Shown in pieces: positions 2,820 to 6,158 of a stretch of 64,000 nt of DNA. Under the pieces are notes generated by a model that made no database searches, had not been told where the DNA came from, and saw only the letters and a list, made by a program, of their open reading frames with translations. This DNA comes from Candidatus Paracaedibacter acanthamoebae (GTDB lineage Bacteria; Pseudomonadota; Alphaproteobacteria; Paracaedibacterales; Paracaedibacteraceae), in NCBI RefSeq assembly GCF_000742835.1, contig NZ_CP008941.1:1321001-1385000 (forward strand), written 5' to 3'. Each line of letters starts with the position of its first letter. Positions within the stretch are counted from its first letter, which is position 1. The position numbers were made by a program, and so were the translations under genes.

Positions 2820-5800
2820 ATGACAGTGGATGTGCAAAAGTCTAAATCACCTGACTATATTTATGCTCATCACTTAAAAAATATTGGGGGGATTCCTTTT
2901 ACACAAAGAGAAATAGACATTCTCGCTGGCATGCTAAGTGGCAAAACAATAAAAACCATTGCTTATTTTTTAACTATTTCTCCTAAAACTGTTGAAACTC
3001 ATATCCGTAACTTAATGCTAAAACTTAACTGCAATTCGCGGGAAGGCATTATTAATTTTATCGAAAAAACGGGAAAATTTTCCGCTCTAAGGCAGCATTA
3101 GGAAAATCTTTTAGCCCAAGCTCGCTTTGAAAAAAAACTCCAGGAAATATTTACTCTCATCCCCAAGGAAGAGGCCATATCTATTTCTCTTTATGCTGAA
3201 AAACAAGCGGAATGGACTCCTCTTATTTCTTATATTGAAAAACAATTAAACCTTGCGGGTCTCCCAACGACACGACAAAGCATTGAAAAAAAGCCGACCA
3301 AGGTTAGGCTCCTACTTTACTGGCCGCTTCCAAACTGAGTCGTTTTATTATTTATATGGTCACGGGGGGAGGTATTGAAAATTTAAATGATTCTTTTTTT
3401 GCCTTGTATAGCGGTGGCCTTATTCTTTTCCCCACCAAACAAACTGACGAAATCTTTTTTACAGGAAGAAAAAATTTTTCTCTTCTTATTTTAGAAGAGC
3501 ATGAAAACTACCATTATATTATTTTTGAGATCTTAAAAAAGTTATTACCCCAGATTAATCTTGAGCCAATTATTTCTGAGTTTCGGCAATTTCATAATTC
3601 CCCTCAAGACCAAAAAACGATCTTATCTTCCCATTCACCACTCCCGCCCCTTAGACCAGAGCGACGGGAAAAAACACTTAAAGCGTTTTTAGGTCCATTA
3701 AAGAAAAAGAAAACGTGGGCGGTAGGTGCTGCATTTTTCATCTTAAGTATAGTGGGATTAGTAGTCTCAATTTCATCCCCGTTCAACAATGAACCATTTC
3801 TCCATAATGGCAAGATTTTATTAACCCAATCTATTTGTTCTGATCTACCTCTTCCCCATACCGGCATGCTTTTACAGCGGCCTGAATTAATAAATGAAAT
3901 TAAAGAAGTATTTAAAAGTCCCGAAGAGATTGGGACTGTGGCATTAGTAGGCATTGGGGGAGCTGGAAAAACTACCCTAGCTCGTCAATATGCACTTACT
4001 CAACGCCTTCCTGTGATATGGGAGATCAACGCTGAAACAAAGGAAAGTTTGATACACGCATTTGAAAACTTAGCTTACGATTTATCTAAGACAGAGGAAG
4101 AAAGATATTAAGCGAATTGCATGAAATAAAAAATTTTCAAGAAAAAGAAGAAAAAATCATTCTTTTTGTTAAAAAAAAGCTGAAAATTCATTTTCCTTGG
4201 CTCTTAATCTTTGATAATGTCGAAAACTTTACAGACATTAAACAGTATTTTCCTTCCCATCCAACTATTTGGGGGAAAGGCAATATAATTATTACAACAA
4301 GGGATAGCAATATACAAAATAATAGTCATATTACTCATACCCTTCATATAGGTGAGCTAAAATCGACAGAAAAACTTGCTCTTTTTGAGAAGATTATGGT
4401 CGCAGAAAATCAGCCTGCTTTTACACCAGAACAAAAAAGGCAAGCAGAAAAACTCTTAAACTATATCCCTTCCTTTCCTCTCGATATCTCTATTGCAACC
4501 AATTATTTAAAAGCGACTAACCAACCTTTTGAGGGTTATGTAGACATGCTAATCCACTATGAGGAAGATTTTGCAGAGTCTGAAGAAAGTACTTTAAAAG
4601 GCTCTCTTGATTATACCAAAAGCCGTTATAATATTATTACCGCTTCTTTAAAGAAAGTCGCATATAAGCATAAAGATTTTTTGGATCTTATTCTATTTAT
4701 TAGTTTACTTGATTCACAGGGTATTCCACGACAACTACTTAATAAATACAAACATGAAGCTATCGTGGATAGCTTTATTTATAATTTAAAAAAATATTCC
4801 TTAATAATAAATACCCTCCTTCAGAAAAGGGAAAATTTTTCAATTCATCGCAGTACCCAACATTTAAGCTTAGCATATTTTAGCAAGACTCTAGATCTTG
4901 AGAGAAATAGGTTCCTTTTAGAAGGCATTATAAGAATTTTCAAAAATGAGATCAATGAAGCAGTAAACAGTGATGGTTTAGTAAAAATAAAGAATTTAAT
5001 AACTCATTGCAAAGCTTTGATGGGTCATAATCATTTGTTAACAAATAATAGCAAAGCATCACTAAGCTGCAGTCTAGGATGTATTTATTATTGTCTAAGT
5101 CAGTATGAAAAAGCACAACAATTTTTAGAAGAAACTCTTTCATTCTTAGATGAATTTTCAATTAAAGATTATCGTTTAAAAGCTAAAACATTCGTGTACT
5201 TAGGGATAGTTGTCAAGACAGCAGGAAATCATTCACAAGCTAAAGATTTAATCGAAACTGGACTCGAAATATATAAGAGTCACTCATTAGACGCCCTAAG
5301 GATATTTCGTGGGCCCTTTTAAACTTAGGAGATGTTTATAGAAATCTTGGTAATTATGATAAAGCTAAAAATTTACTTGAAGAGAGCCTTACAATTTATA
5401 AGAAATATTTTTCACTGGATCATTTAAGAACTGCGCGCACCTTAGGCCAACTCGCTAATCTTTATAGAGAACTGGGGCATTTTGAAAAAGCTGAAGAGCT
5501 AGCCAATGAAAGTGTTGCCAGTTATAAAAAAAATTTTTCTGAAGATCATATTGATGTGGGCTGGTCGTTAGCTCTTTTAGGAAAAGTATACACAAACATC
5601 GGAAAACATAACGAAGTAAAAGAAGTGCTTGAACAAAGCCTTGCCATCCATAAAAAATTTTATCCTGACACACATATTGAGGTTGCGTGGGCTTCCTTAC
5701 TTTTGGCAAACGCTTGTAAAGAACTAGGACAATACGAAAAATTAAAGGCTTTACTTCAGCACTGTCTTGAGCTTCACACACAACATTTTGGAAAAGATCA

Positions 5801-6158
5801 TTCCCAAACAGCCGAGGTTTTAATGAGTTTTGGAGAGGTTTATGGACGAGAGAATAATATAGAGACTGCCCATACCTACTTTCAAGAAGCCTTAAAAATC
5901 TATCAAAAGCACCACCATTTTGATCATTATAAAGTTTTAGAAAACTTAGCAGAATTATGCTTAAGAAGATCTAACTTACTGGATAACAAACTAGGTATGG
6001 CTGAGAGTCAGAATCTTAAGAAGCAAGCCTTACATTACTTTAATCAAGCTCTGGAAATTATAGAAAAGAACTTGGCAGCAGACTCCTTTCATAACATAAG
6101 ACTTCAGAATAAGATTAAAAATCTAATGAAAGATGAAGAAGACCTTACAAGGTCATAG
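2820..6158 (+). pseudogene. LuxR-type HTH / NB-ARC (STAND) ATPase / TPR protein, multiply broken
   Basis: This was one gene for a STAND-type regulator of about 1,110 aa. In order: a LuxR-like helix-turn-helix (2880-3060; REIDILAGMLSGKTIKTIA, ISPKTVETHIRNLMLKL), a linker, a transmembrane segment (about 3715-3780), an NB-ARC P-loop (LVGIGGAGKTTLARQ, about 3945-3990), Walker B (WLLIFDNVE, about 4198-4225), a TTRD sensor motif (about 4297) and tetratricopeptide repeats (about 5040-6060). Lesions: in-frame TAG at 3099-3101; frame changes near 3285-3292 (A-run), 3364-3369 (G6), about 4095-4110 and about 5285-5300. Protein homology continues across every break, including non-annotated stretches 3102-3355 and 5323-5555. 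NB-ARC/TPR proteins are signal-responsive oligomerising ATPases; this copy should be inactive as read. Some breaks could be sequence errors, but five make decay likely. Confidence 0.85.

Follow-up and report, generated by a model that had tools for sequence, protein, structure and literature searches.

Bacterial regulators of the AfsR/SARP type and the LAL/MalT type join a DNA-binding domain to an NB-ARC/STAND ATPase and a TPR-like sensor, and in MalT/LAL regulators the HTH is located at the C-terminus. The membrane-bound one-component regulators of the ToxR/CadC type consist of an N-terminal DNA-binding domain, an OmpR-type winged HTH, followed by one helix and a large C-terminal sensor. In the TIR-NB-ARC-TPR/LRR immune receptors, the plant TNLs and their bacterial relatives, a TIR fold accompanies NB-ARC and a repeat array. 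NB-ARC-TPR proteins also occur in RiPP clusters, represented by the TPR protein of the FxSxx-COOH system (NF040586) and by HaaT (NF041717).

The family described here shares a part of its layout with each of these systems. Its predicted domain order is a LuxR HTH, a degenerate TIR-like domain, a single transmembrane helix, NB-ARC and a TPR array. Unlike in the AfsR/SARP and LAL/MalT regulators, the TIR-like domain and the helix are inserted between HTH and NB-ARC, and the LuxR-type HTH is N-terminal, so that the C-terminal HTH of the LAL/MalT class is not found. The ToxR/CadC type differs in the class of its HTH, and the family carries a STAND ATPase within its sensor part; compared with the immune receptors, the TIR-like domain is degenerate, an HTH is added and a helix precedes NB-ARC. 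The FxSxx-COOH/HaaT models are the top NCBIfam match of all 19 long intact members, with E-values down to 2.4e-83, and some loci likewise lie beside RiPP genes; the matched parts, however, contain no HTH, TIR or helix, the RiPP of the family is of the lasso type, and the phylum is another. For two members, L068 (member 1) at 268 bits and the paralogue L037 at 222 bits, the score stays under the NF040586 cut-off of 300 bits. The NCBIfam models AfsR (19/19 members) and MalT (14/19) match far under their cut-offs. The initial annotation suggested that intact relatives might form an undescribed signalling family; no account of the HTH-TIR-like-helix-NB-ARC-TPR layout was found in the open-access literature searched, and a 2025 Holosporales review does not mention LuxR or NB-ARC.

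The window, a stretch of 64,000 nucleotides from Candidatus Paracaedibacter acanthamoebae (G000:C1:1321001-1385000; genome of 2.485 Mb in two contigs), contains between frr and sodB a locus on the + strand, 2820-6158, read as a single decayed gene for a predicted LuxR-type HTH, a transmembrane helix, NB-ARC and TPRs. The first open piece (2820..3101, 93 aa) holds the LuxR/GerE-type HTH (GerE E 1.2e-17) and ends at TAG 3099-3101, a nonsense codon already recognized in the initial annotation. In the same frame, the post-HTH helix and the first half of the TIR-like domain can be aligned at 3102..3310, and the second half with a linker follows past the first frame change (about 3310), at 3311..3650. 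The predicted transmembrane helix, WAVGAAFFILSIVGLVVSI, lies at 3716..3772 with four lysines before it, confirming a membrane-type helix between HTH and NB-ARC. The first NB-ARC piece (3833..4110), bearing the Walker A motif GIGGAGKTT (3950-3976), is closed by the second frame change (about 4110). The second piece, 4111..4990, comprises the rest of NB-ARC and a presumed winged-helix part, with Walker B WLLIFDN at 4198-4218, TTRD at 4294-4305 and HRSTQ at 4846-4860; the P-loop, Walker B and TTRD motifs noted earlier are therefore all located. The first TPRs (4990..5288) are terminated by the third frame change (about 5288), and the remaining TPRs (5289..6158, TPR_12 E 1e-43) extend to the stop codon.

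Jointly, three forward frames hold the GerE-type HTH, two weak NB-ARC pieces (E 4e-4 and 2e-4, neither reaching the curated cut-off) and strong TPRs. The proposal that translation across the stops yields one gene is upheld by an intact paralogue from the same genome, which can be followed in three frames through nearly the entire locus (tblastn E 7.5e-126 for two pieces taken together, then 2.6e-53 and 2.2e-34). Frameshift-aware protein-to-DNA alignment requires a single stop, at 3099, and three shifts of frame, near 3310, 4110 and 5288; these four lesions suffice where one nonsense codon and four frame changes had been counted. The first frame change falls at 3310 with the sister-species copy as guide and at 3337 with the more distant paralogue. 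The additional short frame previously proposed at ~3285-3369 is unnecessary, since frame 2 is open and can be aligned with the sister-species copy starting at about 3311.

On alignment, the window locus is a dead copy of a gene whose intact versions are found at other sites of this genome as well as in related bacteria. The same genome encodes two intact paralogues, of 1151 aa and of 1157-1165 aa (the second depending on the start chosen). The N-terminal 391 residues match at least 36 of the 58 relatives' genomes at E 0.001 or better, plain HTH matches included, and at least 14 of the 58 show a match in one piece that starts no later than residue 20 and reaches residue 390 or beyond. A contig scan yields at least 39 loci, at least 31 of them matching from residue 25 or earlier. 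Among the loci listed, the titles are mostly alphaproteobacterial (Caedibacter sp., Ca. Paracaedibacter symbiosus, Ca. Odyssella thessalonicensis, Holosporales, MAGs), three lie in MAGs labelled Flavobacteriales or Proteobacteria, and six further loci match in NB-ARC only. At least two genomes of a 398-genome phylum sample match at E 1e-15 or better, the own genome included; the scoring covered a few candidates per genome, the best 4 in the rows listed. The family thus appears, among the matches listed, almost only in Holosporales-type alphaproteobacteria, several of which are amoeba symbionts.

The order HTH, transmembrane helix, NB-ARC and TPR, predicted from the window copy, is borne out there and in intact relatives, including the two in the same genome; separate genes for HTH and NB-ARC would have spoken against it, and the relatives join both in one protein. 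In 19 long intact members, long frames with a helix chosen beforehand, NB-ARC (PF00931, best E 1.2e-15) and TPRs are present in 19/19 and GerE in 18/19. With its P-loop, Walker B and TTRD-like motif, the ATPase belongs by these motifs alone to the NB-ARC class of STAND proteins, and the GerE-type HTH of the window piece and of the 18 members is of the LuxR/GerE class, with DNA binding predicted. A helix is situated between the HTH side and the P-loop, ~60-85 residues before the latter and in most cases with its start 63-83 residues ahead of it, in 46 of 48 related frames (mean hydropathy of 1.6 or more; P-loop required within residues 260-420), a figure somewhat biased because the loci were found by queries that include the helix. 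These 48 remain from 50 frames after two unrelated ones (in L067 and L069) were dropped, and frames with the P-loop outside residues 260-420, such as L059 and L088, lie outside the helix counts. In the two exceptions, L086 has HTH and NB-ARC with the helix absent, and L087 (4131-7379, Caedibacter sp. 38-128) consists of a signal-peptide-like start, a TIR-like part, NB-ARC and TPRs, without HTH or inner helix. The model of a full-length member (pLDDT 80.5, pTM 0.60) places the helix at 310-344, and in the PDB it is matched best by 6mfv, a TPR-containing STAND protein (E 1e-14, a loose superposition with an rmsd of 25.6).

Selection was compared in the intact orthologue pair L037/L039 by the Nei-Gojobori method. 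The dN/dS is 0.028 for the HTH (95% bootstrap 0-0.087), 0.067 for NB-ARC with its winged-helix part, 0.083 for the helix region and 0.073 for the TPRs (0.052-0.108), HTH and NB-ARC both being under strong purifying selection; the TIR-like domain is the fastest-evolving part, at 0.256. For the unusual helix, the initial annotation offered two readings, a membrane-tethered regulator or a domain no longer acting on DNA. The first stays the better one; the very low dN/dS measured for the HTH speaks against the second.

The position of the helix raises a question of topology. Its mean hydropathy is 1.6-3.4 over 19 residues, mostly without charged residues. In 46 members, L086 and L087 with no helix being left out of the charge and cysteine counts, the 20-aa flanks contain 4.65 K+R on the HTH side and 3.02 on the NB-ARC side; the HTH side is the richer in 33/46, the poorer in 6 and equal in 7 (sign test p 1.4e-5, with the relatedness of members ignored). 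One hydrophobic span with a positive-inside bias is what defines a single-pass membrane protein, here assigned from hydropathy and charge counts alone. The flanking charges favour an HTH inside, and with one helix the membrane should lie between HTH and NB-ARC. A tethered-regulator mechanism must explain this separation, needing periplasmic ATP, a re-entrant anchor or cleavage.

The helix might, with some plausibility, be a re-entrant or peripheral anchor, with HTH, TIR-like domain and NB-ARC all cytoplasmic, forming an ordinary STAND regulator on the membrane. This arrangement does away with the ATP problem, and it is compatible with the ordinary, though not decisive, cysteine content of the NB-ARC side (0.69%, against 0.76% in 32 window frames of 250 aa or more and 1.57% on the HTH side). 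It also agrees with L086, which manages without the helix, so that the membrane anchor is not indispensable. The hydropathy, the few charges and the K/R bias are nevertheless those of a true span, and the length of the modelled helix (310-344) suits one, keeping this arrangement a tentative alternative.

More doubtful, though worth stating, is an NB-ARC-TPR half outside the inner membrane with the HTH inside, which would act as an NLR-like receptor, reading ATP and a ligand of the host cytosol via the periplasm and signalling through one helix to the LuxR HTH. ATP/ADP translocases of the TLC family are found in the window's genome and in 42 of the 58 relatives searched. TLC translocases import host ATP; ATP must therefore reach the periplasm in such cells, and an external NB-ARC becomes possible. 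A hint in the same direction comes from other NB-ARC and TIR proteins of the lineage with signal-peptide-like N-termini. They include a second family of very large proteins, located directly downstream of some family genes on the same strand (L044/L141, L054, L070, L076), in which NB-ARC follows a long kinase-like part and all four N-termini seen have a signal-peptide-like start. Members of this second family (L070 3904-6801, L141 15006-19001, L076 8376-11243 and L163) contain a kinase-like middle with an HGD-type motif, NB-ARC and DUF7779, with Sel1 repeats in one; a search of 43 relatives' genomes located the family in 3.

Between HTH and helix, the initial annotation had missed a domain, read here as a degenerate TIR-like fold. 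It is modelled as five strands and helices in alternation (pLDDT 77.6), and the top Foldseek match is a 'cryptic TIR' (E 1.1e-3). VIA-align gives Z-scores of 9.6 for TIR, 9.1 for SEFIR, 9.3 for a B12-binding domain and about 8 for receivers, tied within noise, and a PDB profile search with the domain found nothing usable (best E 0.075). A profile of 22 members scores 45.8, 30.5, 25.7, 13.4 and 6.1 bits against five TIR_2 frames that pass Pfam's own TIR_2 cut-off; the 6.1-bit match falls short of the inclusion threshold. One of these five is also matched by the N-terminus of the paralogue in a whole-genome search (E 3.8e-4), and Pfam TIR_2 directly detects 1 of the 22 members (E 0.0087). A receiver or B12 domain is the less favoured reading: the fold scores are similar, but the sequence profile ties the domain to the TIR frames, and the Pfam families matched by the 22 members include neither receivers nor B12 domains. 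NADase TIRs use a catalytic Glu, and the stretch with the Glu in the true TIR frame shows up as an insertion against the family's profile, which hence lacks it. The domain is accordingly called TIR-like and is probably not an NADase. Among the five TIR_2 frames, four (L135 5462-6829, L137 2780-4522, L138 1312-2634, L139 1973-2764) have N-termini that look signal-peptide-like by eye, and these proteins are possibly exported.

The upstream neighbours of family genes are divergent in 26 of 37 cases (binomial p 0.02). Both intact copies in the window's genome adjoin a divergent signal-peptide-like gene, and for L037 (3846-7298) the same divergent neighbour is kept in the sister species. Signal-peptide-like genes, called by our own hydropathy rule with some N-termini judged by eye, make up 10 of the 26 divergent upstream neighbours as against 21 of 103 other genes (Fisher p 0.07) and 14 of all 37 upstream neighbours (p 0.046), a weak enrichment beside family genes. 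No operator common to the 47 family genes was found upstream among dyads and 8-mers; one dyad occurs in 3/47 (at most 2 in ten simple shuffles), and the 8-mers are only A/T-rich.

The neighbour most clearly linked to the family is a lasso-peptide cluster. The lasso B protein is matched by NCBIfam lasso_biosyn_B2 above cut-off in the two tested (E 7.5e-25 and 1.5e-28) and by Pfam Transglut_core3 in 7/7; eight matches, one of them weak, are distributed over 7 of the 58 genomes. Five of the seven strong loci, two of them in G003 and one each in G005, G022 and G010, lie divergently to a family gene, the lasso-like clusters of these amoeba-symbiont relatives lying at L140 5505-8499, L162 3565-6565, L053 1107-4137, L141 8483-11532 and L052 4341-7221. 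At the G002 locus a distant family member is upstream on the same strand, and at G011 the 15 kb examined contain no family member. The lasso B gene is followed by a cyclase-like gene, under its NCBIfam cut-off. In the gaps of the five divergent loci there are one or two small precursor-like frames with a common SxxT-x-G border, which by the lasso rule resemble lasso precursors. The clusters are related to one another, and the pairing with the regulator may therefore represent one old association. Against local lasso control, they are few and interrelated, and the window's genome has no such lasso B protein. The lasso clusters of P. symbiosus and O. thessalonicensis are already published (PMC8831229); the part of that article available to us, on the clusters, does not mention the family regulator.

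Taken together, we give a probability of roughly 0.6 to the reading that the window locus lost its function fairly recently and belongs to a lineage-specific group of membrane-anchored STAND-type regulators whose HTH acts on an adjacent promoter. The intact protein would reside in the inner membrane with its N-terminus inside. Its TPR array would sense a ligand, the binding of which would let NB-ARC exchange nucleotide and oligomerise, bringing the TIR-like and HTH domains together; these sensing and switching steps are carried over by analogy from known STAND proteins. The assembled HTH would then act on the neighbouring promoter, as the gene neighbourhood suggests, typically that of a divergent secreted-protein gene or a lasso-peptide cluster. 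The combination of TIR-like domain, NB-ARC and TPRs is also the make-up of known immune STANDs, several divergent copies are present per genome, and the TIR-like domain evolves fastest, as might be expected if the family consisted of defence or cell-death proteins resembling the bacterial TIR/STAND systems and the HTH merely autoregulated. Such a role is improbable: the stretch bearing the Glu lies outside the family profile with no effector in its place, the neighbours are peptide or secreted-protein genes, and an HTH of the DNA-binding type is held at a dN/dS of 0.028.

The recent inactivation within the preferred reading, that of a membrane-anchored regulator, draws on the sister species G002. 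There, a matching gene lies behind frr on one contig, with its C-terminal part before sodB on another, and nucleotide identity to the window copy is 72-77% near the ends. In G001, G003 and G004, frr is followed by other genes, so that, among these genomes, the frr-regulator-sodB order is seen only in the window's genome and in G002, split there over two contigs. The G002 copy is also dead: it has no stop at the site of the window's stop, its frame shifts at a different place, and the TIR-like domain is followed by a gene for a DDE transposase (PF01609, E 5.4e-29), the C-terminal part forming one open frame. With different lesions and the transposase gene inside the sister copy, the two copies decayed at least largely independently. 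Upstream of the dead sister copy, the gene L116 1192-2388 encodes 398 aa that begin like a signal peptide and contain repeats, without a Pfam match at 0.001; it is absent from the corresponding 0.4-kb gap in the window.

For the dead pair, the dN/dS is 0.109 in the HTH (95% bootstrap 0.049-0.2) and 0.229 in the TPRs (0.16-0.32; both Nei-Gojobori), 3- to 4-fold above the intact counterparts, values that fit long constraint followed by relaxation. The window locus is accordingly best read as a pseudogene inactivated fairly recently and not an old one. Although some breaks lie near homopolymers, it is very improbable that the lesions are sequencing or assembly errors in a gene intact in the living organism, since four of them fall within 3.3 kb while the frames of tsf, pyrH, frr and sodB next to the locus, like those of the two long paralogues, are open, the dN/dS is raised and the copy of the sister species has decayed too. 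A regulator of this kind can no longer be produced from the window copy, which could at most yield its 93-aa HTH piece. The HTH piece stays open as a small frame in both dead copies, with 93 aa in the window and 115 aa in the sister. Further members, L057 (4980-8467), L059, L083 and L085, are split by a frame change or stop, and the loss of family copies therefore seems frequent.

In this family a DNA-binding regulator is combined with the switch found in the immune receptors of plants and animals, and the connection of the NB-ARC switch to the DNA-binding domain via a membrane helix poses a plain topological question. If the ATPase half is outside, the family would represent a STAND receptor operating on host ATP in an intracellular bacterium; if it is inside, the layout would still be new among cluster-situated regulators of lasso peptides and secreted proteins. 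The bacteria concerned are symbionts whose interaction with the host is little known, and the dead copy, together with the independently dead sister copy, indicates that the loss of such regulators is under way.
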